DNA of 64,000 nucleotides from Croceimicrobium hydrocarbonivorans. Its GTDB lineage: Bacteria > Bacteroidota > Bacteroidia > Flavobacteriales > Schleiferiaceae. This document shows, in pieces, positions 41,012 through 63,699 of the stretch; positions within the stretch are counted from its first letter, which is position 1; the number at the start of each line of letters is the position of its first letter. The translations under genes were made by a program, and so were the position numbers. The DNA is taken from positions 3,913,501 to 3,977,500 of the forward strand of contig NZ_CP060139.1 of NCBI RefSeq assembly GCF_014524565.1. Direction: 5' to 3'. Below the pieces are notes generated by a model. It saw only the letters and a list, made by a program, of their open reading frames with translations, was not told where the DNA came from and made no database searches.

Positions 41012-41365
41012 ATGAGCAGCAACATTCGAGTTCCCAAAATCTGTCAGCATTGCGGTACTGAGTTTATCGCCAAGACTACTGTGACCAAATTCTGTGGTGA
41101 TAACTGTGCTAAGCGTGCCTACAAGAAACGCAAGAGAGATCAGAAGGTACAGGAGATTGCCCCTACTGCGGTACAGAAACAAGAATACAATCAGGAGCAA
41201 GTCAGAGACAAAGACTTTCTAAGTATTGCCGAAACCTGCAAACTACTAGGAGCAAGTAGAATGACCCTGTACCGTCAAATAAAGAACGGAAAAATACAAG
41301 CTGCAAAAATTGGGAGCCGAACCATTATCAAGAGAGAAGAAATCGAAAAACTGTTTCAGGCATGA
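41012..41365 (+). CDS. Zinc-ribbon / helix-turn-helix excisionase-like protein
   Basis: 117 residues from ATG 41012, which has AAGGAAA upstream. An earlier frame start at 40928 would translate through the phased repeats and is less likely. N-terminus: treble-clef or ribbon with CQHCGTEF ... [17 protein letters not shown]-terminus: MerR/excisionase-type [50 protein letters not shown] (residues about 70-115). It overlaps the integrase gene (ATGA), so it is probably the directionality factor or regulator for it. Confidence 0.8.
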
Positions 41366-42456
41366 AAGTAACACTAAGAAAACGTAATCAAGGTGGCAAG
41401 ACCAGTCTATACCTCGACTACTACCACAAAGGGAAAAGGAAAACCGAATACCTCAAATTATACCTTTCTCCTAATGCAAAGACTAAGGAGGAAAAGGAAG
41501 TCAATAAAAAGACACTCCAATTAGCCGAGACTATTAGAGCACAGCGACAAATCGAAATCCAAAACGGTGTTTATGGATTCCGAGACAATGAGAAATTAAA
41601 AGGCAGCTTCCTTGCATATATTGAGCTACTTGCCAACCAGAGACAAGACAGTCCAGGCAATTACGGCAATTGGACAAGTATGCTGAAACATCTAAAGGCT
41701 TTCTGTTCCTATGAGGTATCCTTCTCAGATATTGACCGACAGTTTATTCAGGATTTCAAATACTACCTTGATAAGAAGGCTATTGCACATGGTGACCAGA
41801 AACTATCTCAAAATTCTAAGTACTCCTACTTTAACAAGCTGCGAGCAGCTTTAAAGCAAGCAGTGAAAGACGGTATTCTACCTACCAACCCAAGTGAAGG
41901 AGTTGACGCCTTTAAACAAGGTGAACCTGAAAGAGAATTTCTGACTTTGGAGGAACTGCAAGCAGCAGCCAATACGGAATGTGAAATACCTCAGATGAAA
42001 ACGGCATTCATATTTTCATGCCTTACTGGTTTGCGGTGGTCAGACATTAATAAGCTACTCTGGTCAGAGGTGCAGCACTCAAATGATAACGGGTATTACA
42101 TCCGATTCAGACAAAAGAAAACCAAGGGAGCAGAAACCCTCCCTATTTCAGAACAAGCCTTTGGCTTGCTCGGTGAAAGGCAAGCTCCAGAAGAGCGAGT
42201 ATTCAAAGGATTGAAATACTCTGCATGGCATAACCTGAAATTGCAACAATGGATGATGAAAGCTGGTATCTCCAAAACCATCACTTTCCATTGTGCCCGT
42301 CATACCTATGCCACTTTGCAGCTTACGGCAGGAACTGATATTTACACAGTCTCAAAGCTCTTAGGCCATAAGGAATTGAAGACCACCCAAGTCTATGCCA
42401 AAATCATAGATGAAAAGAAACAGGAAGCAGCCAACAAAATCAAACTTGACCTATGA
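41362..42456 (+). CDS. int: Tyrosine recombinase / integrase
   Basis: 364 residues. N-terminal arm-binding and SAM-like core-binding domains, then the catalytic domain with all signature residues: arginine in [12 protein letters not shown] (about 225), HxxR in [12 protein letters not shown] (about 308-313), histidine in [11 protein letters not shown] and tyrosine in QVYAKI (about 344). This type integrates Bacteroidota islands and conjugative transposons. It starts within 600 bases of the mnmE 3' end, and this nearness points to mnmE as its target. Confidence 0.92.
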
Positions 42457-47453: not shown

Positions 47454-49553
47454 ATGCCTAACCATACTTTCAACATACTCACATTCAATCACCCGCAGGA
47501 AGAACAAACCTTTTACTTCACTGACCAGGAACATGACAACCTCACAAGGATCTACAAATCGCTTGTACCTGATGAGGTTATTGAAAAGTATGGGGAGCAA
47601 GACCATTATTACACATCATTTACAGTTGAGCAGGACGGATTCTTAGCAGTATCCAAACCAACAACTCCTTTATTTGAAACCAAGACAAATGAGGCAGGTG
47701 AAGAACGCTCATATGCTGTTCGCAATTCTACCTTCTCATCTTCAGTACTAAAGCGATATTACAATTCGCTTATTCATAGTCATTTCAAAGGGAAAGGATT
47801 TTTAGTAAAGCCCAATTTTATAAGTGATACGGAAGTTTGGCTTCCAAGCGAAAAACAGGATACAACTGGTCAGTACAAGATATTTGACCGCTTCTCACTC
47901 AAAGTACAGTTTAAGACCGTTTCCGATAGTCTGGAATTGTTGGTGACATTTGAAGGTAAATCCAAAATCTTCAAGGTTCCTGTCTCCACTCTTTTAGAGG
48001 ATGTATCACCGACAGATATTAATTGGGTAGTGTATGAAAAAGGACTGTACCGATTTGATGAGTTGCCTGATAGTGGCAAAAGAGAATATGACAAGGTGTA
48101 TCCCGTATGGAATTTCGAAATCAGAGATGCACTAATGCAAGGAACGGAAGCCCCGGACAAAACCAATAAGTACAAAAAGTTTAGAGAGGGAATCGACAAG
48201 TTCTACAATCAATACCTAAATACAGAGGAGTTCAAAGCAATCATTCCAATTACCTCAAATGGATTCATAGCAGTCAATAAAATCAATATCGGGTCAGTCA
48301 ACAATTCCAGTAACCGCCTTTTATTCGGTGAAGAAAAGTCTGGAATCGTGCCAATGGATGGAATGAAAGAGCATGGTCCTTTCGGATTAAGCCCTACTAC
48401 TAAAATTCACTACTTTTTTATCTTTCATAAAGATGATCAGCCCATCGCAGAGAAGATGGACAGTTATTTCAAAGGAACTGAGTTTGGCTTTAAAGGATTG
48501 GTCAAGTTTATTCATACAACTTACCACACCGAAAAAGGTTTCAGTATAAGGTTTGATGACAGAGATGATCCATGGCCAGAAATCTATGAAGCCATTACCA
48601 ATAAACACTTTGAATCTGACATTCAGTACATCGCCATTTATATCAGTCCATTCTCCAAAAATGCTCCAGACAAATCAAGAAGGAAGATATACTACAAGCT
48701 GAAAGAATTGCTACTGAAAGAAGGCGTATCCTCACAGGTAATTGACGGAGAGAAGGTATTGACCAACGAAAAGTACTATTACAGCCTACCGAATATTGCT
48801 ATCGCCATTTTAGCCAAACTGAACGGCATCCCTTGGAAGCTGGATACAAAGCTCAAAAATGAATTGATAGTAGGCATTGGAGCATTTAGAAACTCAGAAG
48901 TTGACATACAATATATAGGAAGTGCTTTTAGCTTCGCTAACAATGGGAAATTCAACCGTTTTGAGTGCTTCCAAAAAGACCAAACAAAGGAGTTAGCAGG
49001 TTCAATTATCAGGGCAGTAAAGGAGTATGCTAATGTAAATACAGGCATCAAACGGCTTGTGATACACTTCTACAAGAGTATGAGGCAAGATGAACTTCAA
49101 CCAATAGAAGACGGCCTCAAAGACCTTGGATTAGACATTCCGGTATTTATAGTGTCCATCAACAAAACAGAATCCTCAGACATTGTTGCATTTGACAACA
49201 GTTGGAAAGACCTTATGCCAATGAGTGGCACATTCATAAAGGTTGGGTACAATAAATTCCTGCTATTCAACAACACACGATACAATCCAAAATTTTACAG
49301 CTTCCATGACGGTTTTCCGTTCCCGATCAAGCTGAAAATCTTTTGCACAGAAAAAGAGCTGGTAGAGGAATATAAGACCGTAAAAGAATTGATAGATCAG
49401 GTGTATCAGTTCAGCCGTATGTATTGGAAATCAGTAAGACAACAGAACTTACCAGTTACCATCAAATACCCTGAAATGGTCGCAGAAATGCTCCCTCATT
49501 TTGATGGTAATGAAATACCTGAATTTGGAAAAGACAACCTTTGGTTCTTGTAA
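47454..49553 (+). CDS. Long prokaryotic Argonaute, catalytic residues degenerate
   Basis: 699 residues. N-terminal and PAZ-like parts occupy about 1-330. The MID domain has a Y-K-Q-K guide 5'-phosphate set: Y413 and K417 in YYKLKELLLKEG, Q428 in SSQVIDG and K455 in AILAKLNGIPW. The PIWI domain starts LIVGIGAFRNSEVDIQYIG; where active Argonautes have the first catalytic aspartate (VGID), G476 stands. The third catalytic aspartate position reads LVIHFYKSM (Y540). KKYPEMVA-type C-terminal end is present as TIKYPEMVAEML, and the protein stops at FL. It therefore probably binds guides but does not slice, as in the long-B group. No nuclease, Sir2 or membrane effector gene is adjacent. The stop overlaps the Fur-family gene start (TAATG). 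Confidence 0.85.
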   Translation: MPNHTFNILTFNHPQEEQTFYFTDQEHDNLTRIYKSLVPDEVIEKYGEQDHYYTSFTVEQDGFLAVSKPTTPLFETKTNEAGEERSYAVRNSTFSSSVLKRYYNSLIHSHFKGKGFLVKPNFISDTEVWLPSEKQDTTGQYKIFDRFSLKVQFKTVSDSLELLVTFEGKSKIFKVPVSTLLEDVSPTDINWVVYEKGLYRFDELPDSGKREYDKVYPVWNFEIRDALMQGTEAPDKTNKYKKFREGIDKFYNQYLNTEEFKAIIPITSNGFIAVNKINIGSVNNSSNRLLFGEEKSGIVPMDGMKEHGPFGLSPTTKIHYFFIFHKDDQPIAEKMDSYFKGTEFGFKGLVKFIHTTYHTEKGFSIRFDDRDDPWPEIYEAITNKHFESDIQYIAIYISPFSKNAPDKSRRKIYYKLKELLLKEGVSSQVIDGEKVLTNEKYYYSLPNIAIAILAKLNGIPWKLDTKLKNELIVGIGAFRNSEVDIQYIGSAFSFANNGKFNRFECFQKDQTKELAGSIIRAVKEYANVNTGIKRLVIHFYKSMRQDELQPIEDGLKDLGLDIPVFIVSINKTESSDIVAFDNSWKDLMPMSGTFIKVGYNKFLLFNNTRYNPKFYSFHDGFPFPIKLKIFCTEKELVEEYKTVKELIDQVYQFSRMYWKSVRQQNLPVTIKYPEMVAEMLPHFDGNEIPEFGKDNLWFL

Positions 49554-49963
49554 TGGACAGAATAGAAGAAATATTTAAAATTAAGGACGTAAAGCCGACT
49601 GCTGTAAGGATAGTAGTACTGCGCTACCTATTAGAACAAAAGAAAGCACAGTCTTTAAAGGACATTGAAGTTGGTCTCGATCAATCAGACAGAAGTTCAA
49701 TTTTTCGCACACTAAAAACTTTTGAAGATCATAAGGTGATCCATAGTATCGAAGATGGCTCAGGGATGACCAAGTATGCTGTATGTGTAGAAGGCTGCAA
49801 TTGCGATCCAAAAGACCTTCATTATCATTTCTATTGCACTTCATGTGAAATGACTTTTTGCCTTTTAGACCACCCTATTCCTTTAGTCAATCTACCAAAT
49901 AATTTTAAAATGGCACAAGCTAACATGGTCATTAAAGGATTATGCGATAAGTGTAACCAATAA
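49553..49963 (+). CDS. Fur-family metalloregulator
   Basis: 136 residues from the ATG at 49553, which shares a base with the Argonaute stop (TAATG), so its translation depends on ribosomes finishing the Argonaute. The winged helix has TAVRIVVLRYLLEQKKAQSLKDIEVGL and SSIFRTLKTFEDHKVIHSI. Metal ligands: HYHFYCTSCEMTFC and CDKC at the end, giving the two CxxC structural zinc pairs. It resembles Zur-type proteins. A 15-base inverted repeat just downstream, before the metal pump genes, is its likely target. Confidence 0.85.
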   Translation: MDRIEEIFKIKDVKPTAVRIVVLRYLLEQKKAQSLKDIEVGLDQSDRSSIFRTLKTFEDHKVIHSIEDGSGMTKYAVCVEGCNCDPKDLHYHFYCTSCEMTFCLLDHPIPLVNLPNNFKMAQANMVIKGLCDKCNQ

Positions 49964-57863: not shown

Positions 57864-58433
57864 ATGAAGCTAAACACCCTCTACATAAAAAACATGGTTT
57901 GTCCTCGCTGTATTGACACAGTGAAGGACATTTTGGATAACCTGAATATAGAAACCTCCTCCATTGAACTCGGAGAAGTTCATACACCAAACAACATCAC
58001 GAGTGATCAGAAATCACAGCTGGAGGAACTACTGGCAGCACGAGGCTTTGAGTTGCTTCAAGATCAAAAGTCGAAACTGATCGGACAGATCAAAGCGATC
58101 ATTGTAGATCAAATTCATCACAACAAAGAAGCCTTAAATATCAATTTCTCTACCCTAATAGCTGATAAACTGCACCAGGAGTATTCTTCTCTCAGCAGGC
58201 TTTTCTCTTCTGTCGAAGGAGTCACTATTGAGCGGTTTATCCTTAAACAAAAAGTAGAGCGAGTGAAAGAGCTCATCTTTTACAATGAGCTAACGCTCTC
58301 AGAGATTGCTCATCAAATGGACTACAGCAGTGTAGCCCATCTATCCGCCCAATTCAAAAAAGAGACGGGCATGACCCCCACAGCTTTTAAGAAAATGAGA
58401 AATCCGGGACGGCAATCACTGGATCAGCTGTGA
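57864..58433 (+). CDS. HMA-like metal-binding domain fused to AraC-type DNA-binding domain
   Basis: 189 residues. The first 70 residues resemble a heavy-metal-associated domain: MKLNTLYIKNMVCPRCIDTV, with C13 and C16 as CxxC. The last 90 residues form an AraC family double helix-turn-helix: LFSSVEGVTIERFILKQKVERVKEL, LTLSEIAHQMDYSSVAHLSAQFKKETGMTPTAFKK. It should therefore sense a soft metal ion directly and switch transcription. Paired direct repeats with 21-base spacing stand before the next two transcription units and are its probable targets. 45 bases separate it from the CDF gene. Confidence 0.85.
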   Translation: MKLNTLYIKNMVCPRCIDTVKDILDNLNIETSSIELGEVHTPNNITSDQKSQLEELLAARGFELLQDQKSKLIGQIKAIIVDQIHHNKEALNINFSTLIADKLHQEYSSLSRLFSSVEGVTIERFILKQKVERVKELIFYNELTLSEIAHQMDYSSVAHLSAQFKKETGMTPTAFKKMRNPGRQSLDQL

Positions 58434-58434
58434 T

Positions 58435-58469
58435 CAAAATCTCATAAGCCTTTTTCAAAATTGTGTAAC
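58435..58469 (+). promoter_or_regulatory. Direct-repeat pair, candidate AraC-type operator (first copy)
   Basis: CAAAATCTCATAAG (58435-58448) and CAAAATTGTGTAAC (58456-58469) start exactly 21 bases apart. CATCTTTG at 58491-58498, one base from TAnnTTTG, follows 21 bases later, so the second repeat covers the -33 region as for a class II activator. The gene at 58526 would be the target. Confidence 0.55.
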
Positions 58470-58525
58470 AGCCACAAGCAGCTTACCGATCATCTTTGTA
58501 TCGTGACAATTAATACGATAACAAG

Positions 58526-59272
58526 ATGACCAAAGAATATACAATTACCGGAATGACTTGCACTGGCTGTTTGGCCAAAGTGAAGAGAACGATCAATGGA
58601 ATCGAAGAGATACAAGAAGCCGCTATTCAACTGGAATACCCACAGGCAAAGATTATCTCCGATGAATCTTTAGACCTTGGAGAAATTAATCTGGCATTAA
58701 AAAAGGTAGGGAACTATGCCATTTCTGAAGAATATCAAGAGACCGTACAAGCTCCGCTCCCTAAGATCAAAAAACAAGAACCACTCGCTGAGAAGTCCAT
58801 TACCACCTACAAACCACTGATCCTTATTGTAGGGTTCATTGCTGTGGTAACAGCTTTGAGCCAATACCCATTCAATGAATTTTCGGGGATGTTGTGGATG
58901 CGCCACTTTATGGCAGGGTTCTTCATTGTCTTTGCTTTTTTCAAGCTGCTAAACTTGACAGGCTTTGCGAACTCTTATCGAATGTACGATATAGTAGCCG
59001 CTAAATGGAAAGCCTGGGGATACGCTTACCCATTTGTTGAACTAGCCCTGGGATTGCTCTATTTATTGAATATTGCACCGTTTTTCACAAACATGGTGAC
59101 AGTTATCGTCTTGGGCATAAGCAGCATCGGAGTGATTAAAAGCAACCTGAACAAGAAGAAGATCAAATGTGCCTGCCTGGGAGATGTATTCAATTTACCC
59201 ATGAGTACAGTCACCATTGTAGAGGATCTATCCATGGTAGCTATGGCTGCAGCTATGCTTGTTTTCACTTAG
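58526..59272 (+). CDS. HMA domain plus MauE/DoxX-like membrane protein
   Basis: 248 residues. The N-terminal metal domain has GMTCTGCLAKVKRTI with C12 and C15. After a linker, four hydrophobic segments form a MauE-like membrane part (PLILIVGFIAVVTALSQYPF, FMAGFFIVFAFFKLLNLTGF, ALGLLYLLNIAPFF, VTVIVLGISSIGV) and a cytosolic or periplasmic CACLGDVFNLP loop. Such proteins are encoded beside CusA-type pumps in Bacteroidota and are thought to handle copper or silver or thiol transfer; function unproven. Confidence 0.8.
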   Translation: MTKEYTITGMTCTGCLAKVKRTINGIEEIQEAAIQLEYPQAKIISDESLDLGEINLALKKVGNYAISEEYQETVQAPLPKIKKQEPLAEKSITTYKPLILIVGFIAVVTALSQYPFNEFSGMLWMRHFMAGFFIVFAFFKLLNLTGFANSYRMYDIVAAKWKAWGYAYPFVELALGLLYLLNIAPFFTNMVTVIVLGISSIGVIKSNLNKKKIKCACLGDVFNLPMSTVTIVEDLSMVAMAAAMLVFT

Positions 59273-59279
59273 GTCGTTA

Positions 59280-59315
59280 CAAAATTCTGTAATCATTTCT
59301 CAAAATTCTATAAAC
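59280..59315 (+). promoter_or_regulatory. Direct-repeat pair, candidate AraC-type operator (second copy)
   Basis: CAAAATTCTGTAATC (59280-59294) and CAAAATTCTATAAAC (59301-59315) start 21 bases apart, the same motif and spacing as at 58435. A weak -7-like TATATTGC begins 20-22 bases after the second repeat (59336). The gene at 59351 would be the target. Confidence 0.55.
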
Positions 59316-59350
59316 CCTTCTCTGTAAGAAATCCGTATATTGCATTATAA

Positions 59351-59770
59351 GTGAAAAGAATAATCTCCATATCGCTTGCTTTGCTCATGTTGGTTTCCAG
59401 CGTGGGTTTCTCTATGAACACACATTTTTGTGGTGGCGTAGCGGTTGAGACTTCTTTTTCAATCGGACTTCATAATCCTGATTGCGGAATGTCCGATATG
59501 GATGGAGACTGCAAAAAAGAACCATCCTCAGAAGAACAGGTAAAACCTAAACCCTGTTGTGAAAATCAACATGAGGTACTTCAATTAGATGAGAATGCAA
59601 ATCTTCAAGCCTTCTCTGTTGATGTGAATCCTGTTTTCTTTGTTGCTTTCATTCACACTTATGTTCAGCCGATTCTATTTGCTGATCAAGCTTTTGTTCA
59701 TAACACTTATTACTCTCCTCCCATACCTGATAAGGATATTCAAGTCCTTTTTCAGACCTTTTTAATTTAA
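59351..59770 (+). CDS. HYC_CC_PP family exported protein
   Basis: 139 residues from a GTG start. Signal peptide (KRIISISLALLMLVSSVGFS). The family features are present in order: HFCGG, the CC pair in KPCCENQHEV and the proline pair in YYSPPIPD. HYC_CC_PP proteins occur only in Bacteroidota next to copper-type efflux genes; cysteines and histidines suggest metal binding in the periplasm. 104 bases lie between it and the CusA-type pump gene. Confidence 0.82.
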   Translation: MKRIISISLALLMLVSSVGFSMNTHFCGGVAVETSFSIGLHNPDCGMSDMDGDCKKEPSSEEQVKPKPCCENQHEVLQLDENANLQAFSVDVNPVFFVAFIHTYVQPILFADQAFVHNTYYSPPIPDKDIQVLFQTFLI

Positions 59771-59874: not shown

Positions 59875-62800
59875 ATGCTCAATAAAATCATAAAATATTT
59901 CTTAGAGAATAAGTTGGTCACTGTTCTCGTCCTTACAGGTTTTGTAGCCTGGGGAATTGTAACTGCTCCATTTGGATGGCAAGTGGGTGCATTGCCTTCT
60001 GACCCTGTTCCGGTGGATGCCATACCAGACATAGGAGAAAACCAACAAATTGTTTTTACCCAATGGGCTGGCCGTTCGCCACAGGATATTGAGGATCAAA
60101 TCTCTTATCCTTTAACTACTTATTTACTAGGAATCCCAGGAGTAAAATCTATTAGAAGTTCATCCATCTTCGGTTTTTCCAGTATCTATATCATCTTCTC
60201 AGAAGATGTGGAGTTCTATTGGTCACGATCCAGAATACTCGAAAAACTCAACTCACTACCCTCTGGCTTACTCCCTGATGCCGTCCAGCCTGCATTGGGG
60301 CCAGATGCCACCGCCTTAGGGCAGGTGTATTGGTACACCATTGAAGGAAGGGACAAAAACGGAAATCCAACTGGCGGTTGGGATTTGCACGAAATCCGCA
60401 CAGTTCAGGACTTCTATGTGAAGTATGGATTAAATGCAACAGAAGGAGTTTCAGAAGTTGCTTCCATTGGCGGTTTTATTCAGGAATACCAAATTGATGT
60501 AAATCCTGACGCATTGAAAGCCTACAACATCCCCTTGCATAAAGTCATGCAGGCAGTACAAAAATCCAATAAGGATGTTGGTGCAAAGACCATAGAAATC
60601 AATCAGGCTGAATATTTAGTTCGTGGTTTAGGATATGTCAAGAAAGTAGAAGACATAGAAAAGGCAGTAGTTGCAGTACAAGACAATGTGCCTATAAGGA
60701 TAAAAGACATTGGTGTAGTATCTCTTGGCCCCGCTACAAGACGAGGTATTTTGGACAAAGATGGTGCTGAAGTAGTAGGTGGCGTTGTAGTAGCTCGATA
60801 TGGAGCGAATCCCTTGCAGGTCATCAACAATGTAAAAGCCAAAATTATTGAAATAGCACCCGGCCTTCCCAAGAAAACATTGGCTGACGGTAGAGAAAGC
60901 CAGCTTACAATTGTCCCGTTTTATGATCGCTCAGAATTGATCTATGAAACCTTAGGTACACTGGAAGAAGCCTTGTCGCTGGAAATTCTCATTACCATTC
61001 TGGTGGTGATTGTGATGGTATATAACCTAAGAGCTTCATTCCTTATTTCCAGCCTTTTGCCCATTGCCGTGCTCATGGTGTTTATTGCCATGCGATACTT
61101 TGGTGTCGATGCGAATATTGTAGCACTATCAGGAATAGCCATTGCCATCGGAACAATGGTGGACTTAGGTATTATTCTTTCTGAAAATATCATCAAGCAT
61201 ATTGATGAAGCCCCACCAAGCCAAAAACTAATTGATACCATTTACAATGGAGCATCAGAGGTGGCCACTGCGATATTAACGGCTGTCTCTACCACAATTG
61301 TGAGTTTTGTCCCTGTATTTACCATGCAGGCAGCAGAAGGCAAGCTGTTTGGTCCTCTGGCTTTTACAAAGACTTTTGCCCTTTTAGCTGCATTGATCGT
61401 TTCATTGCTGATTTTACCAACGCTGGCACATTGGTTTTTTGGATTCAATATCAAAAACAAGTTTTTAAGAAAGTATGGTCATTACGGCTTAGTACTTATT
61501 GGAATTATAAGCCTCTTTATTGGACAGGTTTGGACGGGAGTGTTACTAATTCAATTTGGAATCATCGGTATTGTAAAAAACATTGAACAGCTCAAAAATG
61601 CTTCACTTCCGACTGTAATAAAGTTCTTACTCAAGTATGCGGAATTAATCATTGTCCTGTTGGGAGTCATTTGGTTGCTGGCAAAATATTGGTTACCACT
61701 AGGTGCATCTAAATCCCTTCTCCTCAACTTTGTTTTTGTTGCCCTATTGGTCGGTGTTATACTCGGTGCGTTTAGGCTATTGGAATTTCAATACAAAAAA
61801 ATCCTCACTTGGTGTTTAAATAACAAAATCAAGTTTTTGATTATCCCGACTATACTCATCCTATTAGGTGCAAATATTTGGCTTGGCTTCAATGCTGTTT
61901 TTGGTTTTGTCTCCAAGGGTTTTGAGAAGGTTGGATGGAATTTGGATCAGACCAAAGGATGGTCAGCCATGTCCCAAACCTTTCCAGGTATAGGAAAGGA
62001 ATTTATGCCTTCTCTGGATGAAGGCAGCTTTCTGTTGATGCCAACCTCAATGCCTCATTCCGGAGTAACATTCAATCGAAAGATAGTAGGCCAGTTGGAT
62101 ATGCTACTAACCAGTATCCCCGAAGTAGAGCTAACGGTTGGTAAACTCGGACGGGTAGAATCAGCCCTTGACCCAGCCCCTATTTCTATGTATGAAAACA
62201 TTATCAATTACAAGCCAGAATATATTCTGAACAAAAAAGGACACAGGCAAAGGTTTAAAGTAGATAAAAACAATCGCTTTATAACAGTTTCTGGTGATTC
62301 ACTAACCAATCAAGAAGGGTTAAGTAAAGGCATTGAAGCCAAGGAACTCATTGCAGATGAAAATGGGGAGTACTATCGCAATTGGCGTGATCACATTCAA
62401 TCACCTGATGATATTTGGAATGAGATAGTAAAAGCCACCAAACTACCAGGTGTCACCTCAGCACCTAAGCTTCAACCGATTGAAACTCGGTTGGTCATGC
62501 TCCAAACGGGGATGCGAGCTCCTATGGGAATCAAGGTATATGGCCCTGACCTGAAAACAATAGAGAACTTTGGATTGCAGTTGGAGAATGTTCTAAAAGA
62601 AGTGCCTTCTGTAAAGGCAGAAGCAGTATTTGCGGATAGAATTGTAGGTAAGCCCTACATACACCTCAACATAAATAGGGATGAAATCTCGCGATACGGA
62701 TTGAACATTGAGGATGTTCAACAGACCATAGAAACCGCAATTGGTGGAATGAAAATAACCTCTACTGTAGAAGGCCGTGAACGATTTCCTGTAAGGGTTC

Positions 62801-63699
62801 GCTATCCAAGAGAATTGAGGGATGACCCTGAAGCATTGGGTAAAATACTAATGCCTACACCCACAGGTGCTCAAATTCCATTATCTCAAATCATAGACTT
62901 TGAATATGTAAGGGGTCCACAAGCGATAAAAAGTGAAGAAACCTTTCTGGTTGGCTATGTACTGTTTGATAAACGTGCTGGTTTCTCGGAAGTCACCGTG
63001 GTAAACGATGCTCAACGCACAATTCAGGATAAAATTGATTCAGGTGAACTGACCGTACCTGCTGGTGTCAGCTATAAGTTTTCAGGGAGTTATGAAAACC
63101 AGGTGAGGGCAGAAAAACGGCTTTCTATAATAGTTCCTTTGGTATTAGGAATTGTGTTTCTCATTCTTTATTTCCAGTTCCGTTCGGTATCTACTTCATT
63201 AATGGTATTTACTGGAATAGCAATGGCCTTTAGTGGTGGTTTTATCATGCTATGGCTCTATGGGCAAATTTGGTTTGCAGACTTCTCAGTCTTCGGCACA
63301 AACTTTCGTGATTTATTCCAAATACATACTATTAATTTAAGTGTGGCAGTTTGGGTTGGCTTTATTGCCCTTTTTGGAATAGCTACTGACGATGGTGTAT
63401 TGATGGCTACCTATCTGGATCAAAGCTTTGATAGAAATAAAACAGATAATATAAAAGGAATAAGAGCGGCAACAGTAGAAGCAGGGCAGCGCAGAATAAA
63501 GCCAGCAGTAATGACAACTGCCACGACCATCATTGCTTTACTACCTATCCTCACTTCAACAGGAAGAGGTTCAGATATTATGATACCCATGGCATTGCCT
63601 GCTGTTGGAGGGATGCTATTTGCTGCCATCACTTATTTCATCGTTCCGGTGATTTACTGCTGGAGAGAAGAACGTAAAATTTTAAAAGGCCAATCATGA
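59875..63699 (+). CDS. cusA: CusA-type monovalent-metal RND pump
   Basis: 1274 residues, longer than E. coli CusA (about 1047) because of an insertion of about 150-200 residues with extra hydrophobic segments near 510-690. Transmembrane helix 4 has SGIAIAIGTMVDLGIILSENI near 420, the HME4 pattern for copper and silver. IETRLVMLQTGMRAPMGIKVYGP, with its methionines, matches the substrate region of CusA. The start FLENKLVTVLVLTGFVAWG is typical. The following channel gene overlaps its stop (ATGA). Together with the CzcA set the cluster covers both divalent and monovalent metals. Confidence 0.92.
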   Translation: MLNKIIKYFLENKLVTVLVLTGFVAWGIVTAPFGWQVGALPSDPVPVDAIPDIGENQQIVFTQWAGRSPQDIEDQISYPLTTYLLGIPGVKSIRSSSIFGFSSIYIIFSEDVEFYWSRSRILEKLNSLPSGLLPDAVQPALGPDATALGQVYWYTIEGRDKNGNPTGGWDLHEIRTVQDFYVKYGLNATEGVSEVASIGGFIQEYQIDVNPDALKAYNIPLHKVMQAVQKSNKDVGAKTIEINQAEYLVRGLGYVKKVEDIEKAVVAVQDNVPIRIKDIGVVSLGPATRRGILDKDGAEVVGGVVVARYGANPLQVINNVKAKIIEIAPGLPKKTLADGRESQLTIVPFYDRSELIYETLGTLEEALSLEILITILVVIVMVYNLRASFLISSLLPIAVLMVFIAMRYFGVDANIVALSGIAIAIGTMVDLGIILSENIIKHIDEAPPSQKLIDTIYNGASEVATAILTAVSTTIVSFVPVFTMQAAEGKLFGPLAFTKTFALLAALIVSLLILPTLAHWFFGFNIKNKFLRKYGHYGLVLIGIISLFIGQVWTGVLLIQFGIIGIVKNIEQLKNASLPTVIKFLLKYAELIIVLLGVIWLLAKYWLPLGASKSLLLNFVFVALLVGVILGAFRLLEFQYKKILTWCLNNKIKFLIIPTILILLGANIWLGFNAVFGFVSKGFEKVGWNLDQTKGWSAMSQTFPGIGKEFMPSLDEGSFLLMPTSMPHSGVTFNRKIVGQLDMLLTSIPEVELTVGKLGRVESALDPAPISMYENIINYKPEYILNKKGHRQRFKVDKNNRFITVSGDSLTNQEGLSKGIEAKELIADENGEYYRNWRDHIQSPDDIWNEIVKATKLPGVTSAPKLQPIETRLVMLQTGMRAPMGIKVYGPDLKTIENFGLQLENVLKEVPSVKAEAVFADRIVGKPYIHLNINRDEISRYGLNIEDVQQTIETAIGGMKITSTVEGRERFPVRVRYPRELRDDPEALGKILMPTPTGAQIPLSQIIDFEYVRGPQAIKSEETFLVGYVLFDKRAGFSEVTVVNDAQRTIQDKIDSGELTVPAGVSYKFSGSYENQVRAEKRLSIIVPLVLGIVFLILYFQFRSVSTSLMVFTGIAMAFSGGFIMLWLYGQIWFADFSVFGTNFRDLFQIHTINLSVAVWVGFIALFGIATDDGVLMATYLDQSFDRNKTDNIKGIRAATVEAGQRRIKPAVMTTATTIIALLPILTSTGRGSDIMIPMALPAVGGMLFAAITYFIVPVIYCWREERKILKGQS

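Follow-up and report, generated by a model that had tools for sequence, protein, structure and literature searches.

What does a regulator sense that carries a metal-binding motif in front of an AraC-type DNA-binding domain, and which genes does it control? This question is raised by a 189-aa ORF in a 64,000-nucleotide stretch of the Croceimicrobium hydrocarbonivorans genome, referred to here as the window, which is part of a single 4.04-Mb contig. An earlier note on this DNA had proposed a one-protein metal sensor with its regulon. The present analysis supports the proposal, the genes downstream of the repeats being mostly concerned with copper export and handling; binding and sensing we infer. 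The regulator quite probably acts in the cytosol and activates these genes in response to Cu(I)/Ag(I), via a pair of half-sites 21 bases apart. The domain make-up, the conserved operator, its fixed geometry and the identity of the target genes were obtained here; they point to metal binding, to the identity of the metal, to DNA binding by the regulator and to activation rather than repression. The features of the locus are collected in Table 1.

Table 1. Regulator, paired repeats and downstream genes, with positions in the window.
Feature	Position	Strand	Basis
Regulator gene, HMA-like plus AraC-type DNA-binding domain, 189 aa	57864..58433	+	ORF, Pfam, predicted model
N-terminal HMA-like domain, beta-alpha-beta-beta-alpha-beta, residues 1-66	57864..58061	+	models, PDB profile matches, Foldseek
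CPRC motif (C13, P14, R15, C16), presumed Cu(I) site, start of helix 1	57900..57911	+	sequence, alignment
AraC-type HTH domain (HTH_18 region, residues 95-178)	58146..58397	+	Pfam, model helices
Half-site 1 before HMA-MauE gene, CAAAATCTCATAA	58435..58447	+	consensus match; pair PWM 32.8
Half-site 2 before HMA-MauE gene, CAAAATTGTGTAA, 21 bases on	58456..58468	+	consensus match
-7-like element CATCTTTG	58491..58498	+	TTTG at position typical of homologous sites
HMA domain + MauE membrane protein, first target gene	58526..59272	+	HMA 1.2e-07, MauE 9.9e-14
Half-site 1 before HYC_CC_PP gene, CAAAATTCTGTAA	59280..59292	+	consensus match; pair PWM 28.4
Half-site 2 before HYC_CC_PP gene, CAAAATTCTATAA	59301..59313	+	consensus match
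Weak -7-like element TATATTGC, distance as for first pair	59336..59343	+	sequence; poor consensus match
HYC_CC_PP family protein, GTG start, second target gene	59351..59770	+	NF047658 1.4e-21
CusA-like RND efflux gene	59875..63699	+	ACR_tran 3.8e-168; CusA label putative

The ORF indeed joins a CxxC metal domain to AraC helices, as the note had claimed. Its N-terminal part reads MVCPRC, with Cys at 13 and 16, and Pfam matches HTH_18 over residues 99-177 (E 1.3e-16, 61 bits against a cut-off of 33.6) and HTH_AraC over residues 142-175 (E 7e-10, 39.2 bits against 26.6). The C-terminus with two HTH motifs places the protein in the AraC/XylS family, and 53/53 aligned sequences match at E<=1. In the AlphaFold2 model, built from an alignment of 53 sequences (pLDDT 89.3, pTM 0.78), the C-terminal helices span residues 68-86, 95-103, 107-118, 122-140, 145-151, 157-168 and 172-178, and a Foldseek search returned AraC, SoxS and MarA chains.

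Profile and predicted fold agree in showing the CxxC domain to be HMA-like. The modelled strands (4-9, 33-35, 38-41, 63-65) and helices (14-26, 47-59) give the predicted N-domain a CopZ-like beta-alpha-beta-beta-alpha-beta fold, with MxCxxC at the junction of strand 1 and helix 1, as in HMA domains; helix 1 is predicted to start at residue 14. M11, C13 and C16 are invariant in 53/53 aligned sequences (the window's included, 48 from the best 80 of 523 relatives), a count to be read with the fact that one of the two peptide patterns used in the locus search itself contained Cys. A profile of 36 N-domains, compared with all PDB sequences, matched 18 chains at E<=10; all 18 are metal-chaperone or metal-ATPase chains, headed by a chain of copper-transporting ATPase 2 (9.2e-6) and CopZ. 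Copper-binding HMA proteins also head the Foldseek list for the N-domain model, and 2l3m, CopZ 6ff2 and 2qif are among its top matches, with TM of about 0.62-0.66 and E of only 4e-3 to 6e-3; no match reaches E<=0.001 (best 4.1e-3), and other ferredoxin-like folds follow from rank 11 (4zoq at rank 11, 2cdq at rank 18). Pfam HMA (PF00403) is matched at E<=1 by 21 of the 36 N-domains, with 5e-06 as the best value. The N-domain of the window itself scores below the Pfam cut-off (12.7 against 24.8 bits, E 0.17), and the domain is therefore named HMA-like rather than HMA. Strand 4 ends at residue 65 and the next helix starts at 68 in the model, which leaves almost no linker to the DNA-binding domain, and no second dimerisation domain is visible in it.

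The repeats that the note had placed at 58435/58456 and 59280/59301 are found at these coordinates, and both pairs are spaced by exactly 21 bases. The four half-sites match CAAAATTNTGTAA in 9, 12, 12 and 11 of 12 positions, in the order of Table 1. Both -7-like elements start 22 bases past their own pair, close to the 21 first noted, and the second is weak; the -7 consensus TAnnTTTG was taken from PMC7366714. The CusA-like RND gene is probably co-transcribed with the HYC_CC_PP gene. On both strands of the 4.04-Mb genome the exact 13-base consensus CAAAATTNTGTAA occurs in 2 places, both in the window, and its reversed control in none. When up to two mismatches are allowed, the single 13-mer shows no enrichment (317/312 against 317/294). 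The searches were turned to pairs because the single CAAAATTNTGTAA is uninformative at 2 mismatches; what carries information is that the repeats are paired at a spacing of 21 and sit in a fixed promoter geometry, rather than the presence of a loosely matching single repeat.

Pairs at this spacing, which the note had suggested searching for, were recovered both in the genome and at homologous loci. The paired pattern CAAAATNNNRTAA-N8-CAAAATNNNRTAA, searched genome-wide at <=3 mismatches, occurs in 7 places, against 2 for the reversed pattern. Two of the seven are exact (the window pairs), one has 1 mismatch, two have 2 and two have 3. The version with a 7-base spacer (spacing 20) gave 1 place with 3 mismatches and 0 for its reversed control. 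The 1-mismatch operator lies at 3987803-3987836 (L146 1501-1534), about 10 kb beyond the window end, before a gene for a 69-aa CopZ-like HMA protein (Pfam HMA 2.4e-9), and next come ORFs similar by eye to HYC_CC_PP and CusA. The one similar to HYC_CC_PP ends after 85 aa. Of the sites with 2 mismatches, that at 287378 lies 3' of a regulator paralogue (50% identity) and 5' of an ORF reading as a CopA-type ATPase; that at 3809559 lies 5' of an ORF without a Pfam match. Beyond the window pairs the genome thus has two further copper-linked sites, 3987803 and 287378.

Homologous loci were collected by scanning a species-genome collection with the patterns IKNMVC[PDQ]R and FKK[EV][TI]GMT, and the best 80 of 523 confirmed relatives were kept, all from Bacteroidota-type organisms. 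All 80 loci carry CxxC, 79 by regular expression and L135, which reads CPRC too. The 13-base consensus of the window was used for a spacing test over 1.22 Mb on both strands, with at least 19/24 matches, at least 8 per half, and spacings of 13-60. A total of 30 pairs were found at spacing 21 in these best 80 of 523 loci, whereas the other 47 spacings gave 87 in total, the largest being 10 at 54. A position weight matrix (PWM) was then trained on the homologous loci and applied leave-one-out, each locus being scored without the contribution of its own sites or of any nearly identical to them. Among the best 80 of 523 loci, 57 have a site scoring at least 18 against 3 reversed, 49 against 2 at a score of at least 20, and 42 against 0 at a score of at least 24; a cut-off of 10 discriminates less well, with 64 loci against as many as 36 reversed. 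In the family-search loci, a score of at least 13 is reached by 10/21 CxxC-type loci and 1/9 Cys-less ones (L031, 19.8).

The repeat also emerges from a model-free measure of self-similarity, computed on the stretch between 15 bases 5' and 75 bases 3' of the regulator stop. Over the best 80 of 523 loci, lag 21 reaches 7.66, whereas the other lags average 6.28 and do not exceed 6.78. A total of 21 of these 80 loci have no PWM site of at least 16, and in them lag 21 does not stand out (6.48 against a maximum elsewhere of 6.95), so there is no sign of a hidden repeat of different sequence. One locus, L073, has a visible pair with a sub-threshold score. In the note, the proposal had been made to depend on conservation of the repeats, and spacing, orientation and -7 distance are kept in most of the best 80 of 523 loci. 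With 2 mismatches allowed, the single 13-mer turns up often, as chance matching in A+T-rich DNA would predict, but the spacing peak, the reversed controls and the fixed -7 distance put the pairs far above chance; this explanation is already refuted by the comparative data and retains a negligible probability.

Six Chitinophaga loci with no operator of at least 16 (L089, L098, L104, L109, L111, L112) have a conserved 23-aa ORF ending in KK(D/E/N)CC(K/R), directly 3' of the regulator and within 100 bases of its stop. It is possibly a small metal-binding peptide.

The position of the sites is as regular as their spacing. A site of at least 16 lies on the regulator's strand between -10 and +100 of its stop in 39 of the best 80 of 523 loci, and many sites begin within a few bases of that stop. 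The regulator's strand carries 65/68 sites of at least 18 in these loci. Among 62 distinct sites of the same best 80 of 523 loci, 53 have TTTG 38-39 bases after the start of the second half-site (46 at 39 and 7 at 38), and 9 have no TTTG at 36-41. An AraC-type activator in contact with polymerase has this layout, a half-site pair ending near -33 and a -7 element in fixed phase on the same strand. The same-strand orientation and the fixed TTTG phase give the operator the geometry that an activator would need. The same operator and protein could also work in the opposite sense, with the apo-protein repressing and Cu(I) releasing it, as for CsoR or CopY. Overlap of the second half-site with the -33 region means that its occupancy could block polymerase; a repressor, however, needs neither the fixed -7 distance (53/62) nor the single orientation (65/68) found in the best 80 of 523 loci, and the first window pair shows no visible -33 TTTG, which suits an activator-dependent promoter. 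We consider repression unlikely.

For the regulator as a copper-responsive activator, the following course may be proposed. Cu(I) would be bound by the N-terminal HMA-like domain through C13 and C16, and two subunits would sit head to tail on the two 13-base half-sites 21 bases apart. Most likely, Cu(I) at C13/C16 would alter the seating of these two subunits on the repeats. The downstream half-site would occupy the place of the -33 element, the pair ending about there, and the primary-sigma RNA polymerase of the phylum would be recruited to a promoter keeping only the -7 element. The genes switched on would be HMA-MauE and HYC_CC_PP-CusA here, and mostly CopA-type and CopZ-like genes elsewhere.

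The genes downstream of the operators were identified by picking, by rule, an ORF of at least 55 aa for sites of at least 16 (at most four per locus) and for four sites of the own genome. A total of 77 ORFs were found in the loci from the best 80 of 523 and the own genome, one site having none; 74 of them went into a joint Pfam scan, and the two window genes and L146 were scanned separately. Among the 74 ORFs, 46 encode P-type (E1-E2) ATPases and 55 contain an HMA domain; the other domains are DUF4396 (4), AraC (3), DUF326 (2) and MauE (1). The ATPases have CPC in 46/46, and near the C-terminus YN in 45/46 and MxxSS in 44/46, which we take to be Cu(I)-type ATPase signatures; DxG is found in the last 60 residues of 0/46. 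Other targets look by eye like proteins of the HYC_CC_PP and CopZ types. For the genes behind a few sites (the second site of L081, the minus-strand site of L110) no clear copper link is seen. The genes downstream of the operators are thus mostly copper export and handling genes, and judged by operator position they may be under the control of the regulator.

The note had left the metal as Cu, Ag or Zn, a choice that the comparative data would narrow towards Cu(I)/Ag(I). A sensor of Zn(II)/Cd(II), or of thiol redox state given that CxxC can form a disulfide, would agree with the two CDF genes and the RND/adaptor (CzcB-like) pair just upstream in the window, and with the HMA domains of ZntA and ZiaA among the weaker relatives of the N-domain in the PDB profile and Foldseek searches. 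Against it, the best HMA matches of the N-domain are copper proteins, the target ATPases of the best 80 of 523 loci carry the Cu(I)-type motifs described above and two targets are DUF326 proteins, while the PWM scan of the window finds no site before the upstream RND/CDF genes. Such a sensor appears quite unlikely.

It might also be asked whether such repeats belong to Bacteroidota CopA promoters in general and serve a different protein, the fusion gene being a mere neighbour. Some sites do lie kilobases away from the regulator (L083, L091, L094), but many start a few bases from its stop. We compared CopA loci from two sets of 30 genomes, one lacking and one having a regulator match at E<=1e-30; a CopA match was present in 29/30 genomes per set, one genome in each giving two, so that each set has 30 loci. 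A score of at least 13 is reached by 0/30 regulator-less and 9/30 regulator-bearing CopA loci (Mann-Whitney p 2e-7), a contrast to be read with the possible overlap between the PWM training loci and the regulator-bearing set; 21/30 loci of the latter score below 13, and no reversed control reaches 13 in either set. Mean A+T is 0.47 in the regulator-less and 0.57 in the regulator-bearing loci. At A+T of at least 0.50 the contrast is 0/15 against 9/24 (Fisher p 0.006), at 0.55 or more it is 0/6 against 8/20 (p 0.08, not significant), and at 0.57 or more 0/6 against 6/18 (p 0.14). Base composition accounts for part of the contrast, which weakens as the sets shrink. A generic CopA element is very unlikely on these grounds.

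An identical 34-base operator precedes a CopA-type gene in five flavobacterial loci of four named genera (L091 12051, L094 13909, L102 13939, L103 13918, L106 13937). Recent transfer of a copper cassette would be expected to leave such letter-for-letter identity.

The regulator family is widespread, being matched at E<=1e-30 in 142/296 sampled Bacteroidota genomes and 81/140 genera, counts that include Cys-less relatives; in the window's own family, 24/88 genomes match the regulator model at E<=1e-25. The own genome has 0 matches to the CsoR family (PF02583) and 0 to CueR (TIGR02044) at E<=1e-10. An anti-correlation with CsoR was considered, since PF02583 is present in 5/51 regulator-bearing against 27/48 regulator-less genomes (Fisher p 1e-6); it is not relied on because 21 of the 27 belong to a single family (f18) and because relatedness does not enter into the test. 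CueR exceeds its curated cut-off in 0/99 genomes (21/99 at E<=1e-10), yet the cut-off is too strict to show absence, as just 1/14 control genomes passes it. In four regulator-less genomes (G090, G095, G137, G145) a MerR-type match lies about 0.7 kb from the CopA match, and in a fifth (G132) a CsoR match lies about 0.2 kb from it, as expected if those sensors serve there. It is possible, if rather doubtful, that Bacteroidota possess a class of cytosolic Cu(I) sensor peculiar to them, whose activator is assembled by copper itself and which replaces CueR/CsoR over a large part of the phylum. A Cu(I) ion bound between two CPRC sites would then hold the two subunits in head-to-tail order on the 21-base repeat. 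HMA proteins can share a bridging Cu(I) with each other, and the very short predicted link between the HMA-like and DNA-binding domains would make such copper-bridged pairing possible.

Several known systems share parts of this arrangement. The two-HTH DNA-binding domain is common to AraC/XylS activators such as AraC at araBAD and, in their DNA-binding domains, MarA and SoxS. The araI1-araI2 sites are 21-base direct repeats, and at araBAD, as here, such repeats lie just upstream of the core promoter. AraC, in contrast, senses a sugar through a cupin domain and has a separate dimerisation part, whereas the regulator here has an HMA-like metal domain and its model shows no such part. CueR (of the MerR type), CsoR and CopY are one-component cytosolic regulators, and the present regulator is likewise expected to control copA and copZ; it differs from them in having no MerR, CsoR or BlaI domain by Pfam, its match being to HTH_18 and not to PF02583. 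With CopZ/Atx1 chaperones and the HMA domains of CopA it shares MxCxxC at the strand 1/helix 1 junction and, according to the model, the fold, but here the domain is fused to a DNA-binding domain and scores under the Pfam HMA cut-off. YbtA, presumably the AraC-type regulator of the copper response of uropathogenic E. coli, resembles the proposed regulator in being an AraC-type protein in a copper response; the presumed signal of YbtA is copper complexed by a siderophore and does not involve an HMA domain, and its regulon is different. An AraC-type regulator takes part in the siderophore-dependent copper response of uropathogenic E. coli (PMC8725597). The regulator would accordingly fall within AraC-family regulation, with the sensor domain as the new part.

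No published description of an HMA-AraC fusion or of the 21-base operator was found in the portion of the open-licence PMC literature covered. A 2024 survey of the flavobacterium Bizionia argentinensis reports that the relatives of MerR and CopY found there lack the known copper-binding sites, names two candidates of the ArsR type and a possible two-component regulator, and describes an order of genes around copA that differs from the one in other Gram-negatives (PMC11213822); the word AraC is absent from the main text as available. Bacteroidota are abundant, and a regulator family whose operator can be recognised would offer an explanation of their cytosolic copper sensing that is open to test. 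The operator would allow copper regulons to be predicted from sequence, and copper reporters built on Bacteroidota promoters could use it as a natural component.

Some relatives may have departed from copper. Nine Cys-less paralogues of the same architecture have Ser/Thr for the first Cys (MVSxRC, MLTRSC; L029, L031, L032, L033, L034, L037, L038, L039, L040), and by eye none has a copper gene just downstream within flanks of 0.5 to 1.5 kb, which suggests that a different signal may be read with the same fold in these proteins. An HMA-ATPase-like ORF is divergent from the paralogue in L032, and L031 holds the site of score 19.8.

In HYC_CC_PP-type genes, a GTG start is found a few bases past the -7 element, e.g. 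TTTGCTTTAGGTGAAA in L070. Such starts were seen at 59336-59353 of the window, at 9434-9446 of L070, at 3757-3769 of L063, and after the regulator in L025 and L026. The closeness of GTG to the -7 element suggests leaderless or near-leaderless HYC_CC_PP transcripts.

Upstream of the metal genes, and adjoining mnmE (39366), the window contains a prokaryotic Argonaute (47454-49553; Piwi 3.3e-14, PADLOC pAgo 4.5e-292) in a stretch that also holds a tyrosine integrase (41362-42456) and primase-like genes (44175, 45204; to 47021). Together with the metal genes, this stretch looks like a mobile island with defence and metal functions. A 136-aa Fur-family regulator (49553-49963, PF01475 3.5e-07) is encoded between the Argonaute and the RND/CDF genes, and it could serve the upstream part as a second regulator responding to metal.
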